This document shows positions 5,400-46,058 of a stretch of 64,000 nucleotides of DNA, one piece after another. The notes under the pieces are model-generated. The model was not told the origin of the DNA, did no database searches, and saw nothing but the letters and a program-made list of their open reading frames with translations. Made by a program: the position numbers and the translations under genes. The DNA lies in NCBI GenBank assembly GCA_003152075.1, contig PLZG01000098.1, positions 62,001 to 126,000 on the forward strand. Direction: 5' to 3'. Source of the DNA: a candidate division FCPU426 bacterium (GTDB lineage Bacteria > Oederibacteriota > Muellerivitia > Muellerivitales > Muellerivitaceae). Within the stretch, counting starts at the first letter, position 1, and each line of letters begins with the position of its first letter.

Positions 5400-5434
5400 T
5401 GCCCACTCCCCGAGGCCGACACTTTTCCGGGAGT
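5397..5434 (-). promoter_or_regulatory. Hairpin that can hide the btuB ribosome binding site
   Basis: On the minus strand ACTCCCG (5434-5428) can pair with CGGGGAGT (5412-5405) across a loop of about 15 bases. GGGGAG is the only good ribosome binding site for the btuB ATG, 6-7 bases away. A second hairpin, GCTTCTT/AAGAAGC (5493-5473), lies between this element and the riboswitch. Together they look like the riboswitch expression platform, probably acting on translation. The pairing is read by eye and no folding energy was computed. Confidence 0.5.
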
Positions 5435-5507
5435 AGAGGAGGAAAACCGTTTAAAAGAAAGGTTTTTTCTCCGCTTCTTATTCCCGAAGAAGCATCAGAA
5501 AATTTCT

Positions 5508-8000: not shown

Positions 8001-8049
8001 CTTCAGCTTGTTCCTGTTTTTTTAGGAGGCTCAGTGTACAATCAGACTT

Positions 8050-11229: not shown

Positions 11230-11239
11230 TTTTGATTCC

Positions 11240-15181: not shown

Positions 15182-15599
15182 CTCCGCTTCGCCATCGAGC
15201 CTGAATTTATCAAGCCATCCTAAAAGCTATTTCCTCAATCCTAAAGACTTGGCGCCGCAACTATCACATTGAGGTTGTTTTTATCCACAAGGCACTATCA
15301 ACATATCCCAAAAATTGTGAGTAACTTTCGGTAAAAACCTTTTTTCCACAAAAGTTTTGGGATGAGGTTGTATAAAAAGGGAATAAGTCCCGTGATAAAC
15401 CAAAAGAGTTGCGGGCTTGTGGATTTGTCTTATAATACCCCCAGTTTATTCCCAAGCTTTAATATCGTTATTGCCAGGATACAAAGCGAAAATTCAACCT
15501 TTTGCACATATCCTCAAAGCCCACTACTACTTCTCTTATTAAATTTTAAAATCTTTTAAAGAAACAGTTGGTAGCCTCAATCGGTGAAGGAGATATTCC
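15182..15599 (+). other. Probable replication origin, right part (dnaA-dnaN intergenic region)
   Basis: A 418-base gap with an exact DnaA box TTATCCACA at 15281-15289, TTTTCCACA at 15342-15350 and TGTGGATTT at 15419-15427. An A+T-rich stretch near 15465-15560 follows that could melt. With the boxes upstream of dnaA this resembles the bipartite origins described in several bacteria, where dnaA lies between two box clusters. The dnaN promoter is in the same stretch. Confidence 0.65.
15409..15436 (+). promoter_or_regulatory. Candidate dnaN promoter with a DnaA box in its spacer
   Basis: A perfect TATAAT at 15431-15436 is preceded, 16 bases upstream, by TTGCGG at 15409-15414. The DnaA-box-like TGTGGATTT (15419-15427) lies in the spacer, so DnaA binding there would be expected to affect transcription of dnaN. 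This is inferred from sequence only. Confidence 0.45.
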
Positions 15600-16718
15600 A
15601 TGAAAGTAGTGTTAACAAGAGCTGATCTTCAAAAGGGAATTTCAACGGTTCAAAGCGCGGTCGCGGCTAAAAATACCATGCCAATATTGGCAAACGTATT
15701 GTTAGAAGCCCGGGAAAAGAAGTTGGAATTCGTGGCGACTGACCTGGATATGGGTATTCGTTGCAGTGTTCCGGCTGAGGTAGTCGAAAAAGGAAGTATT
15801 ACCATAAACGCTAAAAAATTAGCGGATATTGTTAGGGAATTACCCGATGCTTCAGTGGATTTGGAAATAGACGATAACCACAAAATGATACTTATTTGCC
15901 AAAAGTCAAATTTTAAGGTTCATGGACTTCCAAAAGATGATTTTCCGATCCTTCCAGATGTTAAAAAAGACAAGTTATTTAAAGTAAAGGGGTCCCTTCT
16001 CCAGGAAATGACCCGTAAGACCATTTTCGCCGTATCGACAGATGAAACCCGTTATGTGTTGAATGGGGTTTTTTTCCAGGTAGAAGCGGGGAAGTTGAGA
16101 ATGGTTGCCACGGACGGGCACCGATTGGCTTTCATCCAAAAAAAGCTTGAGGGAAAATCGGACGAAAAATGCAACGTTATTATTCCCACGAAAACCCTGA
16201 ATGAGCTCTCTAAAGTTATTTCGGATGTGGGCAAGGGCAAGGAAGACGAAGTCATTGTGGAAATCTACGCGACCGATAACCAAATTAAGTTTGTGGTGGG
16301 AGGGGTGGAAATCATCTCCCGTTTAATCGAGGGCCAGTTCCCGAATTATGAGCAAGTTATTCCCAAGGAATCGGATAAAAAGGTGGAAGCTTCGACCGCC
16401 GATTTAGCCTCGGCGACCCGGCGTGTGGCTATCTTGACCTCCGAAAAATCCAACTCCATCCGTTACCAAATCAAGCCGGGCAAGCTCTCGATTTCCTCCA
16501 AAACGCCTGATATGGGTGAGGCCAAGGAAGAGATGGACGTGAATTACAAAGGGGAAGAAATCAGCATTGCCTATAACGCTAAATACGTGTTGGACGTGCT
16601 GAAAAACGTGGGGACCGACTCGGTTAATATCGAGCTCACCCAACCCTTAAGTCCAGGCGTCCTGCGCCCCAAAGGCGATACCGATTATCTTTGCGTCATC
16701 ATGCCGATGAGGGTGTAA
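15600..16718 (+). CDS. dnaN: DNA polymerase III beta subunit (sliding clamp)
   Basis: Forms the dimeric ring that tethers DNA polymerases and repair enzymes to DNA. The 372 residues form three repeated clamp domains, opening with MKVVLTRADLQKGISTVQ and ending CVIMPMRV, the usual clamp C-terminus, which helps form the peptide-binding pocket. TDGHRLAF near residue 176 is the most conserved family motif. A GAAGGAG-type ribosome binding site precedes the ATG. The usual follow-on genes recF and gyrB are absent: a terminator comes next. The clamp is relevant to the nuclease at 49298-50347, which ends in a clamp-binding motif. Confidence 0.98.
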   Translation: MKVVLTRADLQKGISTVQSAVAAKNTMPILANVLLEAREKKLEFVATDLDMGIRCSVPAEVVEKGSITINAKKLADIVRELPDASVDLEIDDNHKMILICQKSNFKVHGLPKDDFPILPDVKKDKLFKVKGSLLQEMTRKTIFAVSTDETRYVLNGVFFQVEAGKLRMVATDGHRLAFIQKKLEGKSDEKCNVIIPTKTLNELSKVISDVGKGKEDEVIVEIYATDNQIKFVVGGVEIISRLIEGQFPNYEQVIPKESDKKVEASTADLASATRRVAILTSEKSNSIRYQIKPGKLSISSKTPDMGEAKEEMDVNYKGEEISIAYNAKYVLDVLKNVGTDSVNIELTQPLSPGVLRPKGDTDYLCVIMPMRV

Positions 16719-17261: not shown

Positions 17262-20111
17262 TTAGTGAATCACGATTACTTTGAGGATTTGTCGGTAGGT
17301 GACGCCACCATTGGCGTTTACGGTTTCCATTGCGGCTAGGTAAATCCCGCTGGCGAATCCCTGGACGTTCCAAACTACTTGGGGAGCGCTGGGATCACCC
17401 TGAAAACTTGTTACCAGTTCTCCCGTTACATTATATACCCGTCCCCTTATGGTCAGGTTTTGGCCCGAGTAGTTCTCAAAGGTGATTTGGTTATACCCCC
17501 GAGAAACTCTGGCTATGCTGGGCCGGGCGGTAATCCCAGCGGGGGAGTCGCTTGAACGCGATACGACCAGACCCCGTGTAATTTCCGTGGTTCCTCCCTG
17601 GCTGTTTATCCAACGCGTTGTTAAAAGATAGTGGCCGTTGCTCACAAGCATTCCCGAGTCGCTGGTTCCGTCCCAGGAAAGGGTCACCGGGATCCCCGTG
17701 GTTTGAACCACGATCTGAACTTTTCGGGGAAGGCCTTGGTTGGTTCCTCCTGGGATCAATTCGGTGGAACTTAAAACCACATCTGTCAATCCGGTGGTGG
17801 AAGAATCGTCCACTAAAGCATAAAGATGTTTCACAATCTCCCCAGCTTCGTTGTAGACGTTCACTGAGACGCGGGCCAGGTTGCGGCTCACCATGGCTTG
17901 TTGTGTGACGGTCGTTACCACCCCGAAAGCGTCAATGCTGTCCATCTTGATGTTGTAAACGCCGTTCGAGACAGGATTCCCGTTGATATCACTGCCGTCC
18001 CAGGTTCTCAGGAGGTTCCCATCGTGATAGATGCTGATCATGTTGTTGGGTCCGTTCAGGCTGGTGATCGGGCCGCCTTTTAAGTCGATGCTGTTGATTC
18101 CGTTGGAATATTGTTTCAAGAGAAGTTGTTTGATCAGTTCCCCCGCCTCGTTATAAACGCCCACCCGGATCGTGTAATTTCCCGTCACCTTAACCGTCAC
18201 GCTGGATGCCAGGGGGTTCGCGAGTCCCAAGCAGTTTAAGAGGGCCCCATTGACGATCTCGGTTCCGCCCGCCACGAGAGGATTAACCTGGGTGCTATAA
18301 GAAAGGGAATAAGCGCCGGGGGAAAGCGGAGAAGGCAAGGTCCAACCGATCAAGGAAAGGGCGGCGTTAAAGGTCGCGCTGCCAGCCCCCACCGCGCCCA
18401 GGCTCACGAAGCTCACATTGGCGGGCAGGGTATCGGTCACTATCACCCCCGTGACTATGTTTCCCAAAACCGTGACCCCAATGGTGTAATTCAGTATGTC
18501 CCCCGATTGGGCCGTGGTCTTAGAAACTTGCTTGCCCATTTGAATAGCCCAGGTCGGCGTTGGAGTGACTGTAGGGGTATTCGTCGGAGTATTTGTGGGC
18601 GTAATGGTCGGGCTATTGGTGGGGGTATTGGTTGGGGTGATCGTGGGGCTGTTGGTGGGGCTGTTGCTGGGTGTCACGGTGGGGGAATTGGTGGGTGTAT
18701 TGGTGAAAGTCGCCGTCGGGGTAACGGTGGGGCTATTCGTTGGGGTACTTGTCGGAGTGATGGTCGGAGTGTTGGTCGGTGTGCTGCTGGGGGTAATTGT
18801 TGGGCTGTTAGTGGGCGTTGGGCTCGGCGTTTGGGTGGGACTTTCCGTGGGGGTTGGGCTCGGTGTTTTAGTCGGAGTCAAAGTGGGTGAGTTGGTAGGG
18901 GTCTGGGTCGGTGTGGGGGTCGGACTATTTAAAGGGGTGTTCGTCGCGGTGTTGGTGGGGGTAGGGGTAAATAAGCAAGCCAAGGAGATTTTGCGGATAT
19001 AGCCCAAGTCATAATCGGCAACGAGCATGCTACCTTGCTTGTCGAAGATAACCGCTTCCGGATGCGAAAACTTGGCGGAAAGCACGGGGCCGTCCAAATA
19101 ACCGGCAACACCGGTGGTGATGCCCGCTGATACCGTTACGGTGCCCGCGAAAGTACTCATGAGACCGGTGGTTCCATCCACCTTTCGTATGACGTTGTTA
19201 AAATCATCGGTGACATAAACATTATTTCCGCACCCCACCATAATTCCGTCTGGCTCCTGGCTGAAGGTGGCCAAGGTTGCGGGTCCGCCATCACCTGTAA
19301 AGCCGATGCTTCCAGTCCCCGCGAAGGTGGTGATGATGCCGGTGGTCATGTTGATCTTCCTCACCACGTGATTGTCCGAGTCGGTCACGTAAAGGTTCCC
19401 GTTGGAATCAAAGTCCATGCCCTGGGGCTCGGCCATCTTGGCCAGGGTGGCGGGTCCCCCATCGCCCGAGTAACCCATGACGCCCGTCCCGGCGATGGTG
19501 GTGATGACGCCCGTGGTCATGTTCACTTTTCGGATAGCGCCATTAATCGAATCGGCGATCAAAAGATTTCCGCCGGAATCAAACTTGAGCCTTAAGGGAC
19601 TGTTCAAGGTGCCCAGGGTGGCAGGTCCCCCGTCGCCGGAAAATCCTGCCACCCCGGTTCCAACGACGGTGGTAATGATGCCGGTCAGGTGGTCCACTTT
19701 CCGTATCACGTTGTTGTAGTAATCGGCGATGTACATGTTGTCCTGGGCGTCAAAAGCGAGCCCCGAGGGATAGTTGAAGGTAGCCAGGGTGGCGGGGCCG
19801 CCGTCGCCCGTGTAGCCGGGGTTGAAGGTTCCGTCACCGGCCACGGTGGTGATGATGCCGGTGGTCATGTCCACTTTGCGGACCAGGAGATAGCCTGGAT
19901 CGGCGATATAGAGGTTTCCTTGGGAATCCAAAGCGATATCATCCGGCCCCCCGAGAGAGGACAGGATGGCGGGCCCGCCGTTGCCCATAAAACTAATAGG
20001 ACCGCCGCCGGCGATTGTCGTGACGACCTGGGCTTGGGTGGCGGAGGCTAAGAAGGCCGCCGCGAGGCCAGAGGCCGCGAACCAAAAGGAGTTTTTTTTA
20101 AAAAGGCGCAT
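17262..20111 (-). CDS. Secreted protein: NHL beta-propeller, Thr/Pro-rich linker, DUF11-like and FlgD-like Ig repeats
   Basis: A 949-residue exported protein. A signal peptide covers about residues 1-28 (SATQAQ). Residues 30-380 hold about six NHL-type repeats with the recurring pattern [23 protein letters not shown] and D-GNLY-AD, probably one six-bladed propeller. Residues 385-530 are almost only Thr, Pro, Ser and Asn (TPTNTPT-like units), a flexible and possibly glycosylated linker. A DUF11-like domain follows ([10 protein letters not shown] and [10 protein letters not shown]). Three FlgD-like Ig modules close the protein (VYNEAGE with WDG-D-NG--VSNGVY), the last resembling a C-terminal sorting-type module. 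Ligand and function are unknown. The linker DNA is low-complexity and degenerate between units. Confidence 0.8.
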
Positions 20112-26088: not shown

Positions 26089-26877
26089 TTATTTTTGGGT
26101 GGGTTTTTTCTTGGCTTCCAACTTGCCCAGCAGACTTAAAAGCCCGTCCAGGATGGTCAGGGGATGGGGCGGACAACCGGGAATATAAAGGTCCACGGGT
26201 ATTACCGATTCGGCACCCCCCAGCTGCTGGGGATTGTGGAGAAAGGGCCCGCCGGCTATGGCGCAAGCCCCCACCGCGATGACGATTTTCGGTGGGGCGA
26301 CTGCCGCGTAGGCTTTTTCCAGGGCTAATTCCATGTTTTGGGTGACACAACCCGTTACCAGAAGCCCATCCGCATGGCGGGGGGAAGCCACCATCTGGAT
26401 TCCAAACCGTCCCAAGTCCCAACCCACCGTTCCCAGGACATTCACGTCGGATTCGCAGGCGTTACAGCCGCCCGCGCTGACCTGCTTGAGTTTGAGCGAG
26501 CGCCCGAAAAGACGAAGCAACTTCTCATCCAGGGCCTTGGCCAGGTTCAATTCCGTATCTGGTCCCACCACCAGGTCCTTCCTTGAGTTCACGGCCAAAC
26601 GGTAATCGCCGCTGTAGGAAATCGCATCCTCGGGACAGGCTTCCAGGCAATCGGTGCAAAAGATGCAACGACCCAGGTCGATTTTGGGCGCGCCACCCGT
26701 AAAAGTAATGGCGTCTGTGGGACAGGCTTCCGCGCACTTCCGGCACTCGGGGGGGCATTTGGAGGCGTCTAGGATGGGCCGACCCCGGAATCTTTCGGGT
26801 AAGGGGGGCGGGGGACCTTTTGGATAATCCATGGTCCGGTGCCCTTGCTGGAGCCTGGCTCTCAGGATGTTAAACAT
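26089..26877 (-). CDS. Hydrogenase-related complex: fused ferredoxin and NuoB/HyfI-like small subunit
   Basis: A 262-residue fusion. The N-terminal part (about 30-90) is a two-[4Fe-4S] ferredoxin of the HyfH/NuoI type with C41, C45, C48, C52 and C71, C74, C77, C81. The rest is a NuoB/HycG-like small subunit with GGCNACESD (C138, C141), GACAIAGG (C205) and PGCPPHP (C235), the four ligands of the cluster nearest the active site. It would pass electrons between a soluble donor and the large subunit. The start is the ATG at 26877 behind GAGGTGC; the opening MFNILRARLQQGHRT is typical of HyfH. It is last in the operon, 130 bases behind the large-subunit gene, with a hairpin in the gap. Confidence 0.85.
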   Translation of the reverse strand: MFNILRARLQQGHRTMDYPKGPPPPLPERFRGRPILDASKCPPECRKCAEACPTDAITFTGGAPKIDLGRCIFCTDCLEACPEDAISYSGDYRLAVNSRKDLVVGPDTELNLAKALDEKLLRLFGRSLKLKQVSAGGCNACESDVNVLGTVGWDLGRFGIQMVASPRHADGLLVTGCVTQNMELALEKAYAAVAPPKIVIAVGACAIAGGPFLHNPQQLGGAESVIPVDLYIPGCPPHPLTILDGLLSLLGKLEAKKKPTQK

Positions 26878-26888
26878 AACGCACCTCA

Positions 26889-27005
26889 AAAATCAAATTT
26901 TTAATTCTTAATTTTAAATTATGAATTAATGTTAATTTTCGATTGGATCGACCAATCGAAAAGGTTCCGAAATTCAAAATTAAACATTCAAAATTCATAA
27001 TTGCC
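26889..27005. repeat. A+T-rich repeat with a perfect hairpin inside the hydrogenase-related operon
   Basis: The gap is built of AATTCAAAATT/TTAATTCTTAATT-like words. It contains a perfect 11-bp hairpin, TTTTCGATTGG (26936-26946), loop ATCGA, CCAATCGAAAA (26952-26962). Every other gap among the seven complex genes is under 10 bases, so this stands out. It might be an mRNA-processing or stabilising element, or simply an inserted repeat. Confidence 0.55.
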
Positions 27006-27007
27006 TT

Positions 27008-28525
27008 TCATAAGTCGTGTCCGCAATAAGAAAGGTTGAAACTTTTGTTGCAAAGGGGAAAATCCGAAATAGCCTGGTTCCGGAGGGCCAAGGCCAGGGC
27101 GCTCCAATTATGGAAGGAGGGATCCGTGATCTTGTAACGGATGAAATTCCCCTTCTTCCCCGTGATGGCGACGTGGCAAACCTCGCCTCTCCAACCCTCG
27201 GTCAAGGAAACCACGAGGTGCCCCGGCCGGAGGGAACCCCCCGCTTTTTCTTTTTCCGGGGACGGCAGGGTGTTTAACCTTTCCCGTATGAATTTAATGG
27301 AGCGTTTGATCTCAAGCCACCGGACAAAAGCCCTGGAATGGACATCACCACCGTGAACGGTGGAGACAGGGACCACCGAGAAACGATAGGGTCCAAAAGG
27401 GTGGTTAAAACGGACGTCCCTTTCCAATCCACAAGCCCGGGCCGTAGGACCCACCCAACCCAGTTCCAGCGCCTGTTCCTGGTGGACCGTACCCGTGTCG
27501 TCGAACCGTTCCACCACGGAAGCCGATTCCCACAAAAGGCCCACCGCGTTGGCGACGTCTTTTTCCGCCTCATCCAATTTTTTCAACAAGTCCGTTGCTT
27601 GGGAAGCCTCTAATTGAAAACGATTCCCCCCTACCTTGAGCAGGCTCCTCCCGAACCGGCTTCCGCATAAAACGGCGGTCATATTCAGGAAGTCCCCGCG
27701 AAGCCTTCCGCAATAGGCCGAGGTCGGAAGGAATCCAACGTCCCCCGCCAAGGCTCCCAAGTCCCCCGTATGATTGGCCAAGCGTTCCAACTCAAGGGCA
27801 ATGGCCCGGACCGCCCAATCGTGGGCATTCACCTTCGTTCCCGTCAGGCTTTCCAGGCTTTGGCAATAAGCCCAAGTGTGGGCGATGGTCGTATCGCCCG
27901 CCGCCGCCTCGATTTGGTAAAAAGAACCCTTGTGGGGCCCGTTGAGGAGGGCTTCCTCCACACCCCGGTGCTGGTAACCAAGGGAAATTTCCAGGTGAAA
28001 TACGTCCTCCCCATGGCATTGGAAGCGGAAATGGCCGGGTTCAATGACGCCCGCGTGAATGGGCCCCACCGCCACCTCGTGAACCTCGTCGCCCTTGACC
28101 TGGTAAAAGTCCATCAAACCGATCGGCGGTATCTCCTTGGGATTTTTTGTCTTGATGACCGTCCCGGTGAATCGGACGGGCTTGAGCCAGGGATGGCCCT
28201 CGGGCTTCAAGCCGAACTGTTCGGCGATCTCCCTCTCGAAAAGGTGAAGTTGGGGACAATCCGGCGTTAAGGATGGGAAAGTCCCGCCCTTGACTTTGGT
28301 TTTGGAAACCAGAAGGCGGTTGTTGAGGTCATCCGCGAAAACGGCCACCAGGTCGATTCCGCTTCCTTTCTCAGGGACCATCCCGAAGAAAGAAGCGATC
28401 CTCCAACCCAGGGAAACACCTTGGATCAGCGAGAACTTGAAGTCATCAAAGCCCGGGGAGGGGATAGCCTCATTCCTCACGGAAGAGCCGTTGGTCAGGG
28501 AAATTAGGTTGTCGATATTCATCAT
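27008..28525 (-). CDS. Hydrogenase-related complex: large subunit (NuoC-NuoD/HyfG-like) without NiFe ligands
   Basis: About 505 residues: a NuoC-like domain (LFEREIAEQFGLKPEGHPWL near residue 95) fused to a NuoD/HyfG-like catalytic domain (HLEISLGYQHRGVEEALLNG). In [NiFe]-hydrogenases the L1 motif is RxCGxCxxAH. Here the equivalent is AAAGDTTIAH (207-216), with both Cys replaced. The C-terminal L2 motif, normally DPCxxC, is replaced by NLSYCGHDL. With no ligands for nickel and iron this cannot be a classical hydrogenase; it fits the energy-converting hydrogenase-related (Ehr) group. The frame is open to 28699, but ATG 28525 overlaps the previous stop and follows GGAGGAG. The catalytic substrate is unknown. 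Confidence 0.87.
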   Translation of the reverse strand: MMNIDNLISLTNGSSVRNEAIPSPGFDDFKFSLIQGVSLGWRIASFFGMVPEKGSGIDLVAVFADDLNNRLLVSKTKVKGGTFPSLTPDCPQLHLFEREIAEQFGLKPEGHPWLKPVRFTGTVIKTKNPKEIPPIGLMDFYQVKGDEVHEVAVGPIHAGVIEPGHFRFQCHGEDVFHLEISLGYQHRGVEEALLNGPHKGSFYQIEAAAGDTTIAHTWAYCQSLESLTGTKVNAHDWAVRAIALELERLANHTGDLGALAGDVGFLPTSAYCGRLRGDFLNMTAVLCGSRFGRSLLKVGGNRFQLEASQATDLLKKLDEAEKDVANAVGLLWESASVVERFDDTGTVHQEQALELGWVGPTARACGLERDVRFNHPFGPYRFSVVPVSTVHGGDVHSRAFVRWLEIKRSIKFIRERLNTLPSPEKEKAGGSLRPGHLVVSLTEGWRGEVCHVAITGKKGNFIRYKITDPSFHNWSALALALRNQAISDFPLCNKSFNLSYCGHDL

Positions 28526-29958
28526 GGGGCACTCCTCCAATAATCCACCGCGTCCTGGATTAATTTCATCAAGGGATCGGGAATATATACACCCATCAGC
28601 AAAACCATTCCCAACAGGATCAAGGGTGGAAAGGTTAGGAAAAAGCTGTCGCGGAAATGCGCGCTTTTGGACGCGGCGGCCGACGGCTCGCCCAGGCAAA
28701 CGGCCAAAACCGTGCTTCCCATTCCCATAAAGACCACCATGAGGAGGAACAGGAACGTCCCGCCGATTAAATATTGATGACTCTCGAAGGAGGCCCGCAG
28801 GATCGTGAATTCACTCACGAAGGGCCCAAAGGGCGGGGAACCCGTGATGGCGATAAATCCGATCAGGAATAAATACCCCGATACGGGAAGCCGCCGGATC
28901 GCCCCCGAAACTTCATCCGTCGATTTGCTGTTATAGGCGCGGTGGATGTTCCCGGAGGAAAGGAACAAGATTCCTTTGGACAGGGCGTTGTTGATGAGAT
29001 GGAGGAAGGACCCAAAAATCCCGATCCCGCCCAAACTCACGCCCAAAACCAGGATACCCATGTGTTCCACGCTCGAGTAGGCCAGCATCCGCTTGAAATC
29101 TTTCTGCCTAGCCATGAAGACGGCCCCGAAAGCGATGGAGAGGAGCCCCAACCCCAGCAAAGCCCGGTCCGCGAAGGCCCCTTCGCCCGCGGCGTGGAGG
29201 ATCTTCGTGACCCGAAGGACCGCCAGGAAGGCGCAGCTGGTGATTCCCCCCGCCATCAAGGCCCCCACCAAGCCCGGTGATTCCCCATAGGCGTCCGGTT
29301 TCCAAGTATGGAGGGGGGCCAGCCCCATTTTGGTTCCGTATCCGACCAAAAGGGCGGCAAAGGCGGCGTGAAGCCACGGTTTGGAGAGGGACCCCGCCGA
29401 CCTTGCCAAATCATCCATCATCAGGGTGGGAGGCACCCCCCCCACCAGGGAGGAATAGCCCAAAAAGAACGAACCCAAAAGGGCCAGCGCGATCCCTACC
29501 GAACAGACCAGGAGGAACTTCCAAGCGGCCTCAATGGAGCGGTTGTTGTGGTTGAAATAAATCAAGGGGGCGCTCACCAGGGAAGTCGCCTCGATGGCCA
29601 CCCACATGAGCCCCAATTGCCGGGACAGGGCGACCAGCGATAAAAGCGCCAAGAGAAAAAGAAGGCAACTGCATAAAACACGGTTGGACCTTTCCAGCCT
29701 AGTCAGTAAGTAAGCCGGGGCGTAAAGGAAGCAGACAAAAAACAAAACACTGACGACCAGCAATACTAATTTGCCGAGGGGATCCAGGTAAAGCCAGCCC
29801 TGCGCGGCCGACAAATCATTCTGACCCAAAACATTCAATACGCAAAGGAGCTGGGCGAGGGAAAAAACCGGGAGAAGGAGGGGCCGGAACCGGTTTGAGG
29901 GGAAAAAGTAGGCCGCCGCGCCGCCTAAAAGTGGGATAAGAAAAATAGGATAAAGCAT
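28522..29958 (-). CDS. Hydrogenase-related complex: HyfF/NuoN-like antiporter subunit
   Basis: A 478-residue polytopic membrane protein with about 13-14 hydrophobic segments, of the NuoL/M/N-MrpD superfamily. It keeps the glutamate of the fifth helix (MWVAIEATSLVSAPLIYFN) and the lysine of the seventh (YGTKMGLAPLHTWKPDAYGE), both needed for proton translocation in complex I. MLAYSSVEHMGIL is the typical helix 8-9 motif. The HyfF subtype is indicated by gene order and by HTWKPDAYGESP. The stop overlaps the large-subunit start. It is one of three ion-pump subunits in this cluster. Confidence 0.87.
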   Translation of the reverse strand: MLYPIFLIPLLGGAAAYFFPSNRFRPLLLPVFSLAQLLCVLNVLGQNDLSAAQGWLYLDPLGKLVLLVVSVLFFVCFLYAPAYLLTRLERSNRVLCSCLLFLLALLSLVALSRQLGLMWVAIEATSLVSAPLIYFNHNNRSIEAAWKFLLVCSVGIALALLGSFFLGYSSLVGGVPPTLMMDDLARSAGSLSKPWLHAAFAALLVGYGTKMGLAPLHTWKPDAYGESPGLVGALMAGGITSCAFLAVLRVTKILHAAGEGAFADRALLGLGLLSIAFGAVFMARQKDFKRMLAYSSVEHMGILVLGVSLGGIGIFGSFLHLINNALSKGILFLSSGNIHRAYNSKSTDEVSGAIRRLPVSGYLFLIGFIAITGSPPFGPFVSEFTILRASFESHQYLIGGTFLFLLMVVFMGMGSTVLAVCLGEPSAAASKSAHFRDSFFLTFPPLILLGMVLLMGVYIPDPLMKLIQDAVDYWRSAP

Positions 29959-29962
29959 TCGG

Positions 29963-30604
29963 TTATTCCTTTAAGGAAGTCAATTTATTCGAGTCCAACG
30001 ATGAAAAGGCCTTCTGGATGTGGTTCAAGATGATGCCGAGGACGAAAATACAAACGAAGAGATCCAGCAAAACCCCGATTTCCACCATGAACGGCATCGT
30101 TTTCAAGAGAAGCAAACCAAAAATGAATATTCCGTTTTCGAGGATGAGGAATCCAACAACTTGGGTAATGGCTTTGTGGCGGGTGATGAGCATGATAAAA
30201 CCGGTCACGATCGTGGAAAAAGCTCCCGGCAAGATGAGGTATTCCTTTTGCATCGGGGCCAGGGGAAGGTGGTTCGAGAAGACGATCCCCAGGATCGTTC
30301 CCAGGGCGCCCAAAAACATGGAGGGGATGAAACCCAGGAGGGGTTCCACTTCGCGGCGGATTTTCACGTCGCGCATGGCCCTCAAGAGCAGGTAGGGGAT
30401 CAAAACCCCTTTGATGGCCATTGTTGCCAGCGAAAGAAGTGGCACATGGATTTCCCCCGTGCCTTCCATCAGCAGGGGCATCATTCCCAGTAATATTCCC
30501 TGGATCGCCGACAGACGGATGACAATCCCGATCTGGCTCGAGCCCAGGGCGAAGAAATTCAATAACACCACCACGACGATTAAAGAGTTGACCGCTCCGT
30601 CCAT
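29963..30604 (-). CDS. Hydrogenase-related complex: HyfE-like membrane subunit
   Basis: A 213-residue protein with about six or seven hydrophobic helices, of the HyfE/MrpC-NuoK-like type. FLILENGIFIFGLLLLKTMPFMVEIGVLLDL is shared by HyfE and contains acidic residues within the membrane, like NuoK. It ends HIQKAFSSLDSNKLTSLKE, similar to HyfE C-termini. GAGGTAAG precedes the ATG. It lies 4 bases from both neighbours in the operon, consistent with stoichiometric production. Confidence 0.82.
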   Translation of the reverse strand: MDGAVNSLIVVVVLLNFFALGSSQIGIVIRLSAIQGILLGMMPLLMEGTGEIHVPLLSLATMAIKGVLIPYLLLRAMRDVKIRREVEPLLGFIPSMFLGALGTILGIVFSNHLPLAPMQKEYLILPGAFSTIVTGFIMLITRHKAITQVVGFLILENGIFIFGLLLLKTMPFMVEIGVLLDLFVCIFVLGIILNHIQKAFSSLDSNKLTSLKE

Positions 30605-30608
30605 TTTC

Positions 30609-31520
30609 TTACCTCACCAAAAGGATGAAACCAAAGGCTGACAAAAGACAAGCTGAAACCAATAGGTTTGGGATGAACTTCAGCCGAAGCCGCGCCATGA
30701 AGGACTCGATCAAGCCGATCAACACCGCCAAAAACCCCATCTCCAGGATGAAAATGGGCCAATCCGCCATGCCCGACGAGTCCCAAGGGAGGGCGACATC
30801 CATTACTAAGGCGCCCATCAGCAGCAATTTCATCGAGGACCCGTGGAGGATCAACCCCAGGGCCGGACCGCTGTGGTCCAAAACCATGACCTCATGGATC
30901 ATCGTCAATTCCAGGTGGGTGTTGGGATCGTCGAAGGGGATACGGCTGTTCTCCGCCAAGAGCACGATGAACCAGGCCACGGTGATCAGGATCAAGGACG
31001 CGATTTTTTCCGGCCCCACCTTGAAGTTTTCCCCCAAGACCATATCCGAGAGGCTGTAGGTCTGGGACAGCCGGACCAGGGCCATGAAGCCGAAAAACAA
31101 GGCGGGTTCGGCGAAGGAGGAGAAGGAAACTTCCCGGGCGGCCCCCATCCCCTCGAAGGAAGACCCCGTATCCAGGGCGGCGGAAGCCATGAAAAACCTG
31201 GCCAAGGCCAGCAGGTACACCATGAAAATCATGTCGCCTTGGAAGGCCAAGACCGCTTTATGGTGCCCCAGGGGAACGATCAGGGAAGCGGTGAAAATCG
31301 AAATCCAACCCACCAGGGGCCCGGCCCGGAACACCCAGGTTGTGGTGCGGCTGAAAACCATCCCCTTCCTGAAAAGCTTCATCAAGTCGAAGTAAGCCTG
31401 AAGAAGGGGCGGCCCCACCCTCCCGCCGATGAAAGCCTTGGTCTTGTTGATGACGCCCAAAAGCAGTGGCGACAGGAACAGGACTAAGAATAGGTGAATC
31501 GCCGAATTAAGGACTACCAT
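30609..31520 (-). CDS. Hydrogenase-related complex: HyfD/NuoH-like membrane subunit
   Basis: A 303-residue membrane protein of the NuoH/HycD family, the subunit that links the peripheral arm to the proton-pumping membrane arm. Visible motifs are GRVGPPLLQAYFDLMKLF near residue 34 and ENSRIPFDDPNTHLELTMIH near 190, the latter holding the acidic residues proposed to trigger coupling. About eight hydrophobic segments are seen. GGGGGTAAG precedes the ATG. Its presence makes the complex membrane-bound and complex I-like. Confidence 0.9.
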   Translation of the reverse strand: MVVLNSAIHLFLVLFLSPLLLGVINKTKAFIGGRVGPPLLQAYFDLMKLFRKGMVFSRTTTWVFRAGPLVGWISIFTASLIVPLGHHKAVLAFQGDMIFMVYLLALARFFMASAALDTGSSFEGMGAAREVSFSSFAEPALFFGFMALVRLSQTYSLSDMVLGENFKVGPEKIASLILITVAWFIVLLAENSRIPFDDPNTHLELTMIHEVMVLDHSGPALGLILHGSSMKLLLMGALVMDVALPWDSSGMADWPIFILEMGFLAVLIGLIESFMARLRLKFIPNLLVSACLLSAFGFILLVR

Positions 31521-31526
31521 TTTTTC

Positions 31527-33509
31527 TTACCCCCAAAGAATGAAAAAAAGAAAAGCGAGAAAAATGTAAAAAACATAGGCTTGCGAATAACCGGTTTGAA
31601 GGTACCTGGACCATTTAAAAACCCACCGGATTCCCTTGAGCAGGGGCATGATCCCCCGGTCCAAAACGGTTTCGGGGACGTGGCTATGGAAGGAAATGAT
31701 CGCTGGGAAAAGTCCCCTTAACCGGACCAGGCTCTTTTCCGGAACCAAAACCCATTTGAAAAAATCCACCAATATTTGGGCGTAGGAAGAAGCGCTGTAT
31801 TGCATGGAAGGAGCGGGCTGGATGTAGCCGCAATCCCAGGTGAGGACGGGGGCGGGGATTTTCATTTCTTTTGGACGGCGGTTCATCCCTATTTTTCCAA
31901 CGAGGAAAAGCATCAAAAGGAAAAACCCCACACCGGTGAAAAGGGGAAAGGGAACCAGATCCAAAATTGACCGGCTTTGGGACGGCAAGAGGGGTTCCAG
32001 GGACCTGGAGGCCGATTCCAAGAGAGGGGCCACCGCCTGGGGAAATAAGCCGATCCCAAAACAGAGGATTCCAAGGAAAAGAACCGGGAGCAAAATCGCC
32101 GCTCCCCCTTCCTTTGCCGCCGCGGCCTGGGGCGTGCGGGGATTCCCCAGGAAAACGGCCCCAAAAACTTTCGTGAAGCAAGCCAAGGCCAACCCTCCTG
32201 TCATCGCCAGGGCCGGCACCGCCAGGATCAGGCTCCAGTGGTCCATAGATCCCGGAACACCCAAGGTTTTAAAAAACCCGAGAAAGATTAAAAACTCGCT
32301 GACGAAGCCATTCAAAGGCGGAAGGCCGCAAATCGCCACGGCGCCCACCAGGAACAGCAGCGCGGTCCGGGGCATCTTCTTTCCCAGGCCGCCCATTTCA
32401 TCTATCTCCCGGGTGTGGATGGAATGGACCACCGACCCCGCCGCGAAGAAAAGCATGGACTTGAACAAGCTATGGTTCCACACGTGAAGTAAGGCTCCCG
32501 CCATTCCCAGCAGGATCCATTCGGACTTCCCTTCCGCCTTGCCCAAGAGGGCCAGCCCTAGCCCCAAGAAGATGATCCCGATATTTTCGACGCTGTGGTA
32601 AGCCAAAAGCCTTTTCAAGTCATGCTGGCCGATAGCAAAGACGACCCCCAGGACGGAGGAAAGGATTCCCATCCCGATCAAGAGGGAACCCCACCAAGCC
32701 GGCGGGGTTGGAAAAAGCCAGCACATCCTCACCAGGCCGTAGACCCCGACTTTCAGCAGGACGCCTGAGAGCACCGCCGAAACATGGCTGGGGGCGTTCG
32801 CGTGGGCCGAGGGAAGCCAGACATGGAGTGGAAATAAGCCCGCCTTCAACCCGAAAGCCACTAGGGCCAAGAGGAAAAGAACGTTGGCGCCTTGGGAGGA
32901 TATTTCCCCCGCCTGAAAGGGAAGGAACTCGAAGGAATTTTTCGCGTAATAAAGAAGGGAGAAAAAAGCGAAAAGGAAAAGGATCGAAAAATGAGTGGCG
33001 ACGAAATAAACCCAGCTGGCTTGGCGCGATTCCTCCTTTTCATCTTCCGTGGCGACCAGAAAAAACGCTGAAATCGCCATAATTTCCCAAGAAAAGAGAA
33101 AGAACAGGGAATTGTGGGCCGTCACCACCAAAGCCATTGAGGCGGTTAAAAGACCGTAAAAAAGCCTCAACTTCCGTCCGTTCCCGGCATGGTGGGTTTG
33201 GCTCCAATATTCCAGCCCATAAAGGGACCCCATGACGCAGATGAGGAAAATACTGGTCAGGAAAACGGCGGCAAGGGGATCGATCAAAAAAGAAACCTTT
33301 CCGCCGCAAACCCCGATCGGCAGGGCCCACTCATCACCGACACCCAGGCTGAAGGATTGAAAAGCCACTGCCAGGCCGGCCAGGGAGCCTGCGCAAAAAA
33401 AGAGGATGGAAATGATTTGCCCCACCATCGAGCGGCGGTTGAAAAAAAGGCCGGGGACGCCGCTGAAGGCGGTCAACGCGACCGCGGCCATGAACAAGGA
33501 ATGGTTCAT
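31527..33509 (-). CDS. Hydrogenase-related complex: HyfB/NuoL-like antiporter subunit, copy 1
   Basis: About 660 residues with roughly 14-16 membrane helices. It keeps the key glutamate (LFSWEIMAISAFFLVATEDE) and lysine (FGLKAGLFPLHVWLPSAHA) of ion-pumping NuoL/M/N proteins and has LLAYHSVENIGIIFLGLG. The C-terminal extension with TWDCGYIQPAPSMQYSASSY is typical of HyfB. The start is the ATG at 33509, in an ATGA overlap with the upstream paralogue. It is clearly related along its whole length to the next gene, so this is a tandem duplication. Confidence 0.88.
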   Translation of the reverse strand: MNHSLFMAAVALTAFSGVPGLFFNRRSMVGQIISILFFCAGSLAGLAVAFQSFSLGVGDEWALPIGVCGGKVSFLIDPLAAVFLTSIFLICVMGSLYGLEYWSQTHHAGNGRKLRLFYGLLTASMALVVTAHNSLFFLFSWEIMAISAFFLVATEDEKEESRQASWVYFVATHFSILFLFAFFSLLYYAKNSFEFLPFQAGEISSQGANVLFLLALVAFGLKAGLFPLHVWLPSAHANAPSHVSAVLSGVLLKVGVYGLVRMCWLFPTPPAWWGSLLIGMGILSSVLGVVFAIGQHDLKRLLAYHSVENIGIIFLGLGLALLGKAEGKSEWILLGMAGALLHVWNHSLFKSMLFFAAGSVVHSIHTREIDEMGGLGKKMPRTALLFLVGAVAICGLPPLNGFVSEFLIFLGFFKTLGVPGSMDHWSLILAVPALAMTGGLALACFTKVFGAVFLGNPRTPQAAAAKEGGAAILLPVLFLGILCFGIGLFPQAVAPLLESASRSLEPLLPSQSRSILDLVPFPLFTGVGFFLLMLFLVGKIGMNRRPKEMKIPAPVLTWDCGYIQPAPSMQYSASSYAQILVDFFKWVLVPEKSLVRLRGLFPAIISFHSHVPETVLDRGIMPLLKGIRWVFKWSRYLQTGYSQAYVFYIFLAFLFFILWG

Positions 33510-35512
33510 CGCAGGCTCCAGCTTCCCCAACAGAGGACGGCGATAAAGGCGGCCAGGATGTAAAGGAGGTAAAGCGAGGTCCGGCCCTGTTGCAGTTTCA
33601 AAAGCACCGATACCTTGTCGCCCCAGGCCCGGATAGAAGGGACCAACAGGCCGCCTAGGATCCGGTCATAGGTGATGGTGGAAAAACCGGATTTACGCGG
33701 GAAAACTCCACTCAGTCCGGGCCAATGAAACCTGGAGGGAATGATCCAATGGTAGGTCTTGGAGAGGATTTCCCCGAAAGAAGAGGCCGTGTATTGAAAG
33801 CGCGGGGAAAGGGGATTGATATAACCACAACTCCAAGTCTCCAAGGGGACGGGTTGTGCCGATTCGGAGGTTTTTTTCCTGAAAAGAATCCAACCCACTC
33901 CCACGGCTAGGATAATAAAAAGGGAAAGATTCAACGCGGCGACCGTATCCAGGGGAACGAGACCGTTCAACGGGGCATGAAAGGGCGGAAGTTCCGTTTC
34001 CCAGGATTCCATGGCTTTATCCACGATAAAAATAATCCGCCCCGGAAGAAAACTCAAACCCAGACAACCCGCCAATAACAAGGCCAGGGACGCCGTCATA
34101 TAGCTTTTCTTTTCCTTACCGTGCGGGAGCGGGGAAAACCTCGGTGACCCCAAGAAAATAATCCCAAAGGCCCTCACGAAACAAACTACCCCCAGGGAAC
34201 CGATCAGGGCCAATCCTCCCATCGCCAAGGCACCCAACAAGGCAAGTAGTAGGGACCCGCTGGAGGAGAGGTGGAAAAACCCCTGGTAAAGGATCCATTC
34301 GCCGATGAACCCGTTCAAGGGGGGCAGGCCGCAGGCCGCGCAAGCCGCGAGGAAAAAGGCCCCTCCGGTTAGCGGAAGAAGGGGGATCAATCCTCCCAGC
34401 CAGTCCATCCGGCGGGTATGCGTGGCGTGTAAGATCGAACCGGAACAATAGAAGAGCGTGGTCTTGAACAAGGTGTGGTTCAAGACGTGGAAGAGCGCCG
34501 CCATCATGCCCAATCGCACGAGAACGGAGTTCGCCGAGGAGCGGCCTATCAGGGCTAGGCCCAGACCCATGAAGATGATCCCGATATTTTCGATACTGCT
34601 GTAGGCCAGCATGCGTTTCAGGTCGCTTTCACCGATCGCTAGGATAATTCCCAATACTCCGGAGGCGGTTCCCATAACCAAGACCAGTATGCCCCACCAG
34701 GCTGGCGGCTGGGAGAGGAAACCCAGGATTCGGATGATGCCATATATCCCCATATTCAACATGACGCCGGACATCATTCCCGAAACATGGCTGGGGGCGC
34801 TGGAATGGGCTTTGGGAAGCCAAAAGTGGAATGGCACGATGCCTGCCTTGAATCCGAATCCCAGGAGGGCCAATAAAAATAAGGCGGTCGAAGGCAATTC
34901 CTCCGAAGGCTTCAAGGGCAAGAGCGGCCAGTCAAAGGTTCCCCGAATGCCCTGCAGGACCATGAATAGGACGATCAGCGCCGCCATGCCGAAATGGGTT
35001 GAAACCCAGTAGACCCAACCGGCCTGCCGCACGCTTTTTTCCTCATCCTCCACCACGATCAGGAAATAAGCCGCCACCGCCATCATTTCCCAACCCAACA
35101 GGAAAAAAATACTGTTTCGGGCCAGCAGTAACAACCCCATCCCGCAGGGGAGAAGCCCATAAAAAAGTCTCAGGTAATTCCCGCTTCCGGGTTTTTCGGA
35201 TTGGTTCCAGTACTCTAGGCCAAAGAACGATCCGACGGCTGAGACGAGAAAAACCGGAATCAGGAAGAAAACCGACAGCCCGTCGAGCCCCAAGGCGATG
35301 GACCCGCCGGGAACCTTCCAGGGAATCTCCAGGACGGCCGTGTTTCCAGTGGAAAACCAAAGGGCCAATCCCGCCATTCCGCACAGCGAAGAGAGGATAT
35401 TCAGGCCGGAGGAAATCCATTGTCCGGTATTGGAATGACGGTTGAAAAGGAAGCCGGGAAATCCGCTCAGGCCGATGCCGGCGATTCCCCAGCAGACCAA
35501 AAGCAAACTCAT
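33506..35512 (-). CDS. Hydrogenase-related complex: HyfB/NuoL-like antiporter subunit, copy 2
   Basis: About 668 residues, paralogous to the downstream gene: both share FFN/LFNR-S near the start, LEYW-Q, RLFYGLL, the pump residues (LLGWEMMAVAAYFLIVVEDE; FGFKAGIVPFHFWLPKAH), MLAYSSIENIGIIFMGLGLAL and the C-terminal TWSCGYINPLSPRFQYTASSF. It is the first structural gene of the complex. The start is the ATG at 35512 (or TTG one codon earlier), behind AAAGGA. Two HyfB-like subunits plus HyfF give three putative ion channels, as many as in respiratory complex I (NuoL, M, N). Confidence 0.88.
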   Translation of the reverse strand: MSLLLVCWGIAGIGLSGFPGFLFNRHSNTGQWISSGLNILSSLCGMAGLALWFSTGNTAVLEIPWKVPGGSIALGLDGLSVFFLIPVFLVSAVGSFFGLEYWNQSEKPGSGNYLRLFYGLLPCGMGLLLLARNSIFFLLGWEMMAVAAYFLIVVEDEEKSVRQAGWVYWVSTHFGMAALIVLFMVLQGIRGTFDWPLLPLKPSEELPSTALFLLALLGFGFKAGIVPFHFWLPKAHSSAPSHVSGMMSGVMLNMGIYGIIRILGFLSQPPAWWGILVLVMGTASGVLGIILAIGESDLKRMLAYSSIENIGIIFMGLGLALIGRSSANSVLVRLGMMAALFHVLNHTLFKTTLFYCSGSILHATHTRRMDWLGGLIPLLPLTGGAFFLAACAACGLPPLNGFIGEWILYQGFFHLSSSGSLLLALLGALAMGGLALIGSLGVVCFVRAFGIIFLGSPRFSPLPHGKEKKSYMTASLALLLAGCLGLSFLPGRIIFIVDKAMESWETELPPFHAPLNGLVPLDTVAALNLSLFIILAVGVGWILFRKKTSESAQPVPLETWSCGYINPLSPRFQYTASSFGEILSKTYHWIIPSRFHWPGLSGVFPRKSGFSTITYDRILGGLLVPSIRAWGDKVSVLLKLQQGRTSLYLLYILAAFIAVLCWGSWSLR

Positions 35513-35585: not shown

Positions 35586-36245
35586 TTACTTTTTCAAATA
35601 ATCTTTCTCCAGGAACTTCAACCGGTCCATAATTTTCGATTTTGGCGCTTGGGAAAGAACCAAGCGGGAAAACTCCTTGTCCCTCAACACGGATACCAGC
35701 CTTTCTAAAAAATGCAGGTGCATCCGGATACTGGGAGAAAGAATGACGAAGAGGACGAAAACCGGGGTTCCCCCGGGCTCGCCGAAATTGACCGGGTTCT
35801 TTAAATAACAAAGGGCGACCATCGGTTTTGCCACCTGTAAAAGGATCGGGTGCCTGGCATGGGGAACGGCGATGCCGTTTCCCAATTCGGTGGAGCCTTC
35901 TTTTTCCCGGGAGAGGATCATCTGGCAAATGAGTTTCCGGTCCTCGGCCGAGGGGATCTTCAACAAATTGACGATATTCTTGAATAGGCCGGGCTTGTCC
36001 TCGCCCTGGATGTTTTCGTAAATTCCGCCCGCTTCCAAAGCTTCCCTCAATGAAGGAAGATTGACCCCATTTTGGACCAGGAATGGAACCCTGTTTTCCT
36101 GGGCCCAGTCGACCAGCTTCAAGCGGTTAAAGTGATACCGGCCGTTGAACTTGGTGGTGGGTAGATCCTTTTTCTGGATCCAGTCATAAATGGTATCGAC
36201 CGGAACCTGCAAAAATTCAGAGGCTTCTTTTAGCGTCCACTGCAT
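35586..36245 (-). CDS. Regulator: excisionase-type helix-turn-helix fused to a PTS EIIA (fructose/Ntr type) domain
   Basis: About 219 residues. Residues 1-55 are a MerR/excisionase-like DNA-binding domain (LKEASEFLQVPVDTIYDWIQ, then GRYHFNRLKLVDW). Residues 75-215 are a PTS EIIA type-2 domain with the phosphorylation-site histidine in GNGIAVPHARHP. Such proteins are not sugar carriers; phosphorylation by HPr-like proteins would tune DNA binding or partner binding. GGAGGAA precedes the two ATGs, and the second (36245) is better spaced. It lies between the ArsR gene and the complex genes with short gaps, so it probably controls them. The regulatory role is inference. Confidence 0.78.
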   Translation of the reverse strand: MQWTLKEASEFLQVPVDTIYDWIQKKDLPTTKFNGRYHFNRLKLVDWAQENRVPFLVQNGVNLPSLREALEAGGIYENIQGEDKPGLFKNIVNLLKIPSAEDRKLICQMILSREKEGSTELGNGIAVPHARHPILLQVAKPMVALCYLKNPVNFGEPGGTPVFVLFVILSPSIRMHLHFLERLVSVLRDKEFSRLVLSQAPKSKIMDRLKFLEKDYLKK

Positions 36246-36305: not shown

Positions 36306-36638
36306 TCATTCTTTGGCGAGGTGATCCAAGACTTCCTGGCTTTCCTTAAGTTTTTTTTTTAGAAAAAGGGAAACGGGCTTCAAAACGTCATAAATACCCT
36401 TATCCCGCACCGAATAAAACACTGTTACCTTGTGCTGGCGGGAGTTCAAAATGCCGGCTTGCTTAAGGACCGCCAGGTGCTTGGAAAGGCTGGACTGCTC
36501 CATTTCTAGGGCTTTCCCTATCTCATTAACGGATTTCTCGCCCTTTTTAAGATGCTCGATGATCTTGAGGCGCCCGGAATGGGCCAGGGCCTTCAGGAAA
36601 TCCGCTTTGATCTTAAAGACGAAGGATGGGTCGATCAT
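36306..36638 (-). CDS. ArsR-family winged-helix transcriptional regulator
   Basis: A 110-residue ArsR/SmtB-type repressor: ADFLKALAHSGRLKIIEHL near residue 12, the recognition helix EMEQSSLSKHLAVLKQAGIL near 46, then the wing RQHKVTVFYSV. The classical metal-binding ELCVCDL motif is absent and there is no Cys at all, so it does not sense metals through thiols. It is the first gene of the unit that continues into the EIIA regulator and the hydrogenase-related complex. An inverted repeat just upstream is a likely operator. Confidence 0.85.
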   Translation of the reverse strand: MIDPSFVFKIKADFLKALAHSGRLKIIEHLKKGEKSVNEIGKALEMEQSSLSKHLAVLKQAGILNSRQHKVTVFYSVRDKGIYDVLKPVSLFLKKKLKESQEVLDHLAKE

Positions 36639-36646
36639 GGCGCCTC

Positions 36647-36676
36647 AATATGAATATATTCCAATTCATTCATATA
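36647..36676 (-). promoter_or_regulatory. Candidate ArsR operator
   Basis: An inverted repeat AATATGAAT (36647-36655) and ATTCATATA (36668-36676), eight of nine positions matching, lies 9 bases before the ATG of the ArsR gene. A+T-rich ATATGAAT-type palindromes over the promoter are usual for this family. It would allow autorepression and control of the whole operon. Confidence 0.55.
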
Positions 36677-36736
36677 TTAGAAACCCTGGTTCCCCTTTGT
36701 CAATGGAGCGGAACATAGGGAAGGCAATTGCCGGGG

Positions 36737-37433: not shown

Positions 37434-38093
37434 TTAACTTTTAAGTTTGGCCAGGATTTTAGGGCCTTCGACGTTATCGATGATCCGGAAAGCTTTTTCC
37501 TCAGGGGTCACGTAATAGACATCGGTGTTCTGGATATCGAACCAGAGGCCATGCATTTCCAGCTTCCCGCTTTTCACCAGTTCGGCTACCCGGGGATAGC
37601 TTTTCAAATGCTCCAACTGTAAAAGGACGTTTTGTTTTGAGACCTCGTTGATCTCCTCGGCCCCGCCTAGCTTTTTTCCGCCAGCGCGGACCCTTTTCAA
37701 GGCCTCGTCCCCATGGCGCAGCCATTGTTTGAGATAGGGCATTTCCAGTTTGTCCCGGCCTTGGCAGAGGGCGGTCATGGCGCCACAATCCGAATGGCCG
37801 CAGACGACAATGTGGGCAACCTTGAGCTTTTCCAGGGCGAACTCGATGGCCGCAACCTCCGACTCGTCCGAGGAGGAATCGTGGGAGGGGTTCACGATAT
37901 TGCCAGCATTGCGGATGACGAAGAGGTCGCCCGGGTCGGTGGAGGCGAAGACGTTGACGGCCACGCGGGAATCGGAGCAGGCGATGAACAGGCAGTCCGG
38001 GTTCTGACCCAAAGCCAGCTGGGCAAAGGTTTCCTTCACCTTGTCCCGGCGGTTCTGGTGGAAGTCGATGATGCCTTTGATGAGTTTTTTCAT
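37434..38093 (-). CDS. can: Beta-class carbonic anhydrase
   Basis: Interconverts CO2 and bicarbonate. It is 219 residues, with zinc ligands in IACSDSRV (Cys and the Asp-Arg dyad) and VVCGHSDCGAM (His and Cys) and the conserved NAGNIV between them. The GHSDCGAM form and the C-terminal GLWFDIQNTDVYYVTPE fit the bacterial plant-type (Can/CynT) clade. It has no signal peptide and is likely cytosolic. It is a single-gene unit flanked by a repeat and an A+T-rich gene. Confidence 0.95.
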   Translation of the reverse strand: MKKLIKGIIDFHQNRRDKVKETFAQLALGQNPDCLFIACSDSRVAVNVFASTDPGDLFVIRNAGNIVNPSHDSSSDESEVAAIEFALEKLKVAHIVVCGHSDCGAMTALCQGRDKLEMPYLKQWLRHGDEALKRVRAGGKKLGGAEEINEVSKQNVLLQLEHLKSYPRVAELVKSGKLEMHGLWFDIQNTDVYYVTPEEKAFRIIDNVEGPKILAKLKS

Positions 38094-45003: not shown

Positions 45004-45534
45004 TTGAACTCACCGCATGAGCCTTTCAACTTTCTTCTTTTCATGAGCAATATTAAGCAGCTTCTCTGGTCCTATCCCTGGCCCTGGTGGTCGGCTGGAA
45101 TCGGCATCGGTCTAACAGCCCTGGCTTTGGCTTGGTTCACGGGTCGGCGCCTGGGCGTCACCGGCGGTTTTGAGGATGCCTGCGCGGTCATTACCAAAGA
45201 CGATTCTTCCTACAATGTTTCTCCTTCCCGTTGGAAACTCTGGTTCATCCTCGGCCTACCCTTAGGGGGCTTTATCGCAAACTCGGGGCACTGGGGCTGG
45301 ACATGGCTTTATGGCCGTTTGGATTTCATCACCTTCGGTAACTTGTTCTTCAAGGCCATTTGGCTTTTAGTGGGAGGATTTCTCATCGGGTTCGGCGCCC
45401 GTTGGGCGGGGGGATGTCCCAGCGGCAACAGCATCATGGGTATCAGCCTGGGAAGCAAAATGTCCATTCTGGCTACGGTGGGTTTCCTAGTGGCGGGGAT
45501 TTTAGTCACCAATATTTTATTTAAGGTTTTTTAA
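45004..45534 (+). CDS. YeeE/YedE-family transporter, first half protein
   Basis: A 176-residue membrane protein with about four to five hydrophobic segments, of the YeeE/YedE (DUF395, sulfur-transport) family. GARWAGGCPSGNSIMGISLGS near residue 135 carries the conserved cysteine proposed to interact with thiosulfate in YeeE. The start is a TTG with an ideal AGGAGG 4 bases upstream. The next gene encodes a second protein of the same family and overlaps by one base (TAATG). Together they would make the unit that is a single chain in other bacteria. Confidence 0.78.
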   Translation: MNSPHEPFNFLLFMSNIKQLLWSYPWPWWSAGIGIGLTALALAWFTGRRLGVTGGFEDACAVITKDDSSYNVSPSRWKLWFILGLPLGGFIANSGHWGWTWLYGRLDFITFGNLFFKAIWLLVGGFLIGFGARWAGGCPSGNSIMGISLGSKMSILATVGFLVAGILVTNILFKVF

Positions 45535-46058
45535 TGGCACTCAAATCAACCAAGAAAAAGACCTTCAAAAAGACTTTACGAATTAAAACTATAAAACCAA
45601 AGGGGGCGAAAGCGATGAAACGAATCACTTCAAACGAAAGCACTATCCCCTACTTGGGTTTCGGGGCGCTTTTTGGATATTTTCTTTCCAAGGCCCGCGC
45701 TACCGACTATGACACCATCGTCGACATGTTCCAGTGCAAGGAATTCCAGCTTTATGGCGTGATTATGACCGCCATCGCGGTCATTGCCTTGGGATTTTTC
45801 TTGATGAAGCGCTATGGCATTACCACCTACTCCGGGCAACCCCTGGATATGAAACCCCTGGATTGGGACCCGAACCGGCTCATTGGCGCTTTTATTTTGG
45901 GAACGGGGTGGGCCATCGCGGGAACCTGCCCGGGTACCTCGCTGGCGCAAATCGGCGAGGGCAAGTTAGTGGCCTTTTTCACGGTCTCGGGGATTTTACT
46001 GGGGGTTTGGGGTTACCGAAAATTCAAGTCCGACTCTTCCCAAGAACCAGTTTGCTGA
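45534..46058 (+). CDS. YeeE/YedE-family transporter, second half protein
   Basis: A 174-residue membrane protein with about four helices. GTGWAIAGTCPGTSLAQIGEGK near residue 125 has the second conserved Cys motif of the YeeE/YedE family. The first 28 residues are very basic (Lys-rich) and may not be part of the protein: the ATG at 45615 (MKRITSNEST) is behind GGGGGCGAAAGCG and is an alternative start. It is translationally linked to the previous gene and probably pairs with it for import of thiosulfate or a similar sulfur compound. Confidence 0.76.
   Translation: MALKSTKKKTFKKTLRIKTIKPKGAKAMKRITSNESTIPYLGFGALFGYFLSKARATDYDTIVDMFQCKEFQLYGVIMTAIAVIALGFFLMKRYGITTYSGQPLDMKPLDWDPNRLIGAFILGTGWAIAGTCPGTSLAQIGEGKLVAFFTVSGILLGVWGYRKFKSDSSQEPVC

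Follow-up and report, generated by a model that had tools for sequence, protein, structure and literature searches.

What can a membrane complex built like a group 4 hydrogenase do once the ligands of its metal site are gone? The question is raised by seven contiguous minus-strand genes at positions 26089–35512 of the window, by which we mean the whole 64,000-nucleotide stretch analyzed, from a candidate division FCPU426 bacterium. An earlier note had described a complete hydrogenase-related membrane complex here, and open reading frames together with Pfam and NCBIfam searches agree: the seven genes make up a full Ehr (energy-converting hydrogenase-related) complex, comprising a group 4 hydrogenase-like gene set with antiporter-like subunits. 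As the note had also recognized, it belongs to a published class, named in Geobacter (GSU0739–0745; PMC7894505), whose reaction is not established. Ehr is widespread in bacteria (576 confirmed stretches), and the comparison of residues and genomes argues against hydrogen and quinone, the two default answers to what it converts.

In order of transcription, the locus encodes two HyfB-like antiporter-type pump subunits, B2 (33506–35512; PF00361, E = 2e-51; hydrogenase 4 subunit B model, E = 6e-160) and B1 (31527–33509; PF00361, E = 6e-57; same model, E = 7e-166), a NuoH/HyfC-like membrane anchor (30609–31520; PF00146, E = 2e-35, and alignment), a HyfE-like membrane subunit (29963–30604; NF008556, E = 7e-21), a HyfF-like antiporter-type pump subunit (28522–29958; PF00361, E = 1e-46, and hydrogenase 4 subunit F models), the large subunit EhrL, in which 30-kDa and 49-kDa domains are fused as in HycE (27008–28525; PF00346, E = 2e-34, and PF00329), and the NuoB/HycG-like small subunit EhrS (26089–26877; PF01058, E = 4e-27, and Fer4), fused to an N-terminal two-cluster ferredoxin domain resembling HycF/HyfH. 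Pfam or NCBIfam backs all seven assignments, the HyfE-like gene through NCBIfam alone, and likely start positions are 26877 (S), 28525 (L), 33509 (B1) and 35512 (B2). The subunits originally listed were recovered except for one label: the gene at 30609–31520, read as HyfD, is HyfC/HycD-like, since HyfD of Escherichia coli is an antiporter-like subunit. Most of the genes overlap or almost touch, which is what a single operon would show. A comparison of gene order with other genomes, as the note had suggested, found the same order in ~90 loci from many phyla, a recurrence that places the cluster far beyond chance. Also as claimed, EhrS keeps its iron–sulfur ligands (CGGCNAC, further cysteines and PGCPP), and alignment with the E. 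coli Hyf/Hyc subunits showed that the Glu and Lys residues of the pump subunits are preserved.

The metal site itself is lost. EhrL carries AAAGDTTIAH (27878–27907, minus strand) in place of RxCGxCxxxH, the first pair of Ni ligands, and close to its C terminus NLSYCGHDL (27011–27037, minus strand) in place of DPCxxC, the second pair; both motifs read exactly as the note had given them, and alignment with E. coli HycE confirmed the loss of all four NiFe cysteines. A CxxC pair elsewhere in the subunit would have spoken against this reading, and the EhrL of the window contains none; a few relatives have one that is unrelated to the Ni ligands. Across 95 EhrL sequences aligned to HycE and numbered accordingly, the C241 column holds Ala, Ser, Val or Thr (Cys in two) and the C244 column Thr, Ser, Ala or Val, while C531 is replaced by Ser and C534 by Gly in 93 of 93 each. 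EhrL stops where HycE has R537, the point at which the maturation protease cuts, and has no C-terminal extension beyond it. HypD was not found in the bacterium's own genome (99.97% complete), whose other two 49-kDa proteins are NuoD-like and likewise devoid of Ni ligands. EhrL therefore has neither of the two CxxC pairs of a group 4 [NiFe] hydrogenase and, given the missing ligands, its substrate is probably not H+/H2. The C-terminal motif NKSF[ND][LF]SY.G.D[LR] is almost invariant among EhrL sequences, which indicates strong selection on the vacated site and not decay.

Placement inside the hydrogenases or complex I would also have contradicted the earlier note. In a tree drawn from its midpoint, with MbsL, archaeal MBX and archaeal Ehr left out, EhrL formed a single clade (support 100/100), sister to E. 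coli HycE and HyfG (96/88) and apart from complex I and from the NiFe hydrogenases sampled. HycE of formate hydrogenlyase was likewise the closest solved structure to a model of EhrL, in which the core was good (pLDDT 82) and the pocket loops (147–196, 497–505 and 512–518) poor, so that pocket geometry is unreadable from it. Ehr shares its proximal cluster motif and proton relay with formate hydrogenlyase and hydrogenase 4 of E. coli (group 4a), but differs from HycE in the absent Ni ligands and extension and in a canopy Asp that is usually Asn, and from formate hydrogenlyase in the fusion of the ferredoxin subunit to the small subunit. Within the clade, the EhrL of the window groups with Geobacter-type Ehr and shares 58% identity with its counterpart in Geobacter argillaceus. 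The complex of Geobacter sulfurreducens (GSU0739–0745; PMC7894505) has the same seven-gene plan and also lacks the Ni ligands. Unlike in the window, the second HyfB gene of Geobacter relatives may lie apart or be divergent, and in G. argillaceus L and S are separated by an IclR-type gene. More distant forms were seen as well: one Verrucomicrobiota locus (L065, 4444–19889) holds a pair of different, directly adjoining Ehr clusters, the second from a divergent subfamily with the end NKSFNLSYSGNDR, and L121, L122 and L123, from the phylum of the window, carry a divergent Ehr-like subfamily whose small subunit reads as shorter (~177 aa) and free of ferredoxin motifs.

Around the vacated site, much of the proton path persists. 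Five residues assigned to proton transfer in formate hydrogenlyase (PMC9474812) are retained almost throughout EhrL: canopy R478 in 93/93, H284 in 94/95, E437 and R395 in 93/94 each and loop residue E193 in 92/95. Canopy Asp529, called strictly conserved in the same study, is Asn in 86 of 93 EhrL sequences, that of the window included; Asn also occupies this column in the NuoD encoded on contig C111 of the same genome and is hence not unique to Ehr. The residues N-K-S-F preceding it are new and invariant in EhrL. From the retained relay and these invariant residues, we argue for proton-coupled chemistry at the vacated site. The proposal that an unknown redox step would be coupled to ion pumping fits the kept relay and pump residues.

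Our preferred reading, to which we give a probability of roughly 55%, is that Ehr is a ferredoxin-linked, proton-coupled, ion-pumping oxidoreductase whose substrate, small, polar and not a quinone, would occupy the vacated pocket; its expression is probably controlled by an HTH–EIIA protein and, in the window's subclade, also by an ArsR-type regulator (both described below). Low-potential electrons would enter most likely from ferredoxin, pass the fused ferredoxin domain with its two [4Fe–4S] clusters and then the single proximal [4Fe–4S] cluster, and reach the substrate together with protons where the NiFe center used to be; the three antiporter-like subunits would couple this step to ion translocation. 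Run in reverse, the complex could yield reduced ferredoxin. Ferredoxin is suggested as the donor by the fused domain and by POR/KOR in 23 of 23 Ehr-bearing genomes; these enzymes are common in anaerobes, and their presence is weakly compatible with such a donor.

A different occupant of the former NiFe site would be menaquinone, with Ehr working as a ferredoxin:menaquinone oxidoreductase, a minimal complex I, or in reverse from quinol. The overall plan is indeed that of complex I minus its NADH module, both families lack the four cysteines, and they share the fold, the canopy Asn/Arg and most of the relay residues. However, the residues expected of a quinone site are gone. The Tyr of complex I has a quinone-binding role; its column is Gly, and that of the quinone His in the β1–β2 loop is Ile, in 95 of 95 EhrL sequences. 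The small subunit has no tandem cysteines as in cluster N2 of NuoB and instead keeps the proximal motif CGGCNxC of HycG (CGGCNAC in the window). Neither these residues nor the tree groups Ehr with complex I.

Host genomes point the same way. Many hosts have a menaquinone pathway, including the bacterium studied here, which has MqnA-type genes as well as two loci for complex I, so that quinone is available to it. Among 23 Ehr-bearing genomes, MqnA/D (PF02621) was found in nine and MenD above the cut-off in two more, leaving 12 with neither, although missing markers in metagenome-assembled genomes may reflect incompleteness or salvage. Eight of the 12 also lack a high-scoring NuoD (Treponema G045, Lentisphaerae G046–G049, Verrucomicrobia G051, Spirochaetales G057 and Planctomycetes G062), and in G046, G048, G049, G051 and G062 one Ehr-like protein is the sole match to the 49-kDa family. 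For G060, G061 and G063, the absence of markers is weak evidence because NuoD is present; G050 is intermediate. The invariant pocket residues are identical in Ehr from marker-positive and marker-negative genomes, and quinone genes were noted as missing in Ehr-containing Riflemargulisbacteria (PMC6349859). UbiA (PF01040) proved useless as a quinone marker, matching 14 of 14 control genomes, Thermotoga among them. With the quinone His and Tyr lost and Ehr present in marker-less genomes, quinone is unlikely as a universal substrate, and we consider the menaquinone reading as a whole unlikely.

Distinctly less probable is a formate-linked role, proposed for Riflemargulisbacteria and Saganbacteria (PMC6349859), in which EhrS would be the docking site for a formate dehydrogenase that supplies the pump with electrons. 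It accords with proteomics of G. sulfurreducens, where all Ehr subunits were more abundant on formate (PMC7894505), and with the kinship of Ehr to formate hydrogenlyase subunits, but across the ~90 loci no redox partner gene recurred, formate dehydrogenase included, and the proposal names a donor while leaving the acceptor open.

Still further down, we regard as very improbable a sulfur chemistry like that of MBS/MBX from Pyrococcus furiosus, in which the proximal [4Fe–4S] cluster would itself reduce polysulfide. MBS sets a precedent as another ion-pumping, NiFe-less member of the superfamily with ferredoxin as donor (PMC7684303). In its details, Ehr is the opposite: MBS keeps two of the four cysteines, has a three-Cys proximal cluster and possesses no proton relay (PMC7684303), whereas Ehr has lost every Ni cysteine and retained the relay, and its hydrogenase-type CGGCNxC spacing, in contrast to the shortened three-Cys motif, predicts four-Cys coordination.

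Two genes that the earlier note did not mention, encoding the HTH–EIIA and ArsR-type proteins, lie directly upstream of the operon, outside 26089–35512. The first (35586–36245, minus strand) is a fusion of HTH_17 (PF12728, E = 3e-10) with a PTS EIIA type 2 domain (PF00359, E = 8e-24). Upstream flank reached 0.8 kb or more at 63 loci, and in 41 of these such a gene lies within the Ehr cluster or at most 1.6 kb from it. The 41 loci come from Planctomycetota, Verrucomicrobiota, Myxococcota, Thermodesulfobacteriota, Omnitrophota, Spirochaetota, Bacteroidota, Fibrobacterota and other phyla. It may precede the first HyfB gene, separate the two HyfB genes or HyfB from HyfC, follow S, or be divergent, as in Geobacter relatives; this varying position argues for a functional linkage. 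In the phylum of the window, full-length fusions occur in eight of 45 genomes, all eight Ehr-positive (8/16 genomes with main-clade Ehr versus 0/29 others; Fisher P = 6e-5 with no correction for relatedness), and each of the nine copies adjoins a HyfB-like gene at an Ehr cluster. The EIIA type 2 assignment is strengthened by the phospho-acceptor His: H130 and a second His, H177, are invariant in 24 of 24 fusions. The bacterium's own genome encodes EI and HPr but lacks EIIC of PF02378, the one EIIC family searched, so that its PTS may serve regulation alone. The HTH–EIIA protein probably controls expression of the complex, and its phosphorylation via EI/HPr would report the PEP/pyruvate state.

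This pairing and the lost quinone residues narrow the roles open to Ehr. Among open-licence papers, we found no report of the pairing or of the repeat described below, and an earlier mention elsewhere is possible; hydrogenase, helix–turn–helix and complex I are all absent from a 2026 review of PTS-Ntr. The other repeated neighbors considered as partners were antisense artefacts, SulP transporters (in few loci) and ArsR, none of them a redox partner, and a beta carbonic anhydrase gene close to the window's operon (37434–38093; PF00484) has no homologue at other Ehr loci. The least probable explanation, a redox-gated ion antiporter whose Fe–S clusters merely sense ferredoxin without catalysis in the pocket, would suit the lack of a linked partner enzyme across the ~90 loci and the link to an EIIA-type protein, from a family known for control of ion transport, but the near-invariant NKSF[ND][LF]SY.G.D[LR] motif and proton relay argue for chemistry at the site.

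Upstream regions of the HTH–EIIA genes share a direct repeat, TGTCC-N5-TGTCC. Counting both strands, the 1.42 Mb of locus sequence contain 14 such sites, of which 11 lie 33–87 bp upstream of an HTH–EIIA start (L039, L042, L049, L051, L052, L058, L059, L082, L090, L097 and L113). A spacing of 5 was seen in 11 of 46 HTH–EIIA upstream regions and no other spacing between 0 and 15 in more than one; a relaxed form was present in 17 of the 46, where shuffles averaged 0.18. These counts are no independent test, since the repeat came from k-mer enrichment in the same set. The single spacing and position are striking. We propose TGTCC-N5-TGTCC as a candidate operator of the HTH–EIIA regulator; a direct repeat of 10 bp suits an excisionase-type HTH. 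Inverted repeats upstream of HTH–EIIA genes were almost never above shuffles.

The TGTCC repeat is missing from the window and from L125, its nearest relative; both instead carry an ArsR gene with an inverted repeat. The window's gene (36306–36638, minus strand) encodes a cysteine-free regulator, ArsR-type as judged from its sequence, with homologues in the related Ehr loci L084, L116, L125 and L126; unlike in the window, no ArsR gene was found at Geobacter-type loci. The inverted repeat, ATATGAAT-N12-ATTCATAT (36648–36675, minus strand), is a probable ArsR operator, and similar repeats lie upstream of arsR in the same four loci. Overlapping it is a promoter-like TTGACA-N18-TAATAT (36674–36703, minus strand), assigned by consensus match alone; such sites are no commoner than in shuffles. 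ArsR probably adds a layer of control in the window's subclade. A candidate regulator and an operator-like site make the function of Ehr testable. A bolder reading, less likely than the preferred one, is that Ehr is a distinct kind of enzyme within the complex I superfamily, neither hydrogenase nor quinone nor polysulfide reductase, that would carry out proton-coupled conversion of an unrecognized small polar substrate where the NiFe center used to be, in respirers and quinone-less fermenters alike, under a dedicated EIIA-type DNA-binding regulator with tandem TGTCC sites.

Further features were noted at and around these loci. SulP-type anion transporter genes with 50–59% identity lie in or beside the Ehr/HTH–EIIA cluster in L079 (30–1766), L092 (2360–4213) and L117 (16269–17885). 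Elsewhere in the window, a cobalamin riboswitch was detected at 5494–5659, and by eye the region 414–13155 resembles cobamide synthesis and uptake genes. Also by eye, adjacent DnaA- and DnaN-like genes at 13766–16718 may mark a replication origin region, a large, secreted-looking protein with TPTxTPT repeats is encoded at 17262–20111, and two small membrane proteins at 45004–46058 are similar to YeeE/YedE-type sulfur transporters.
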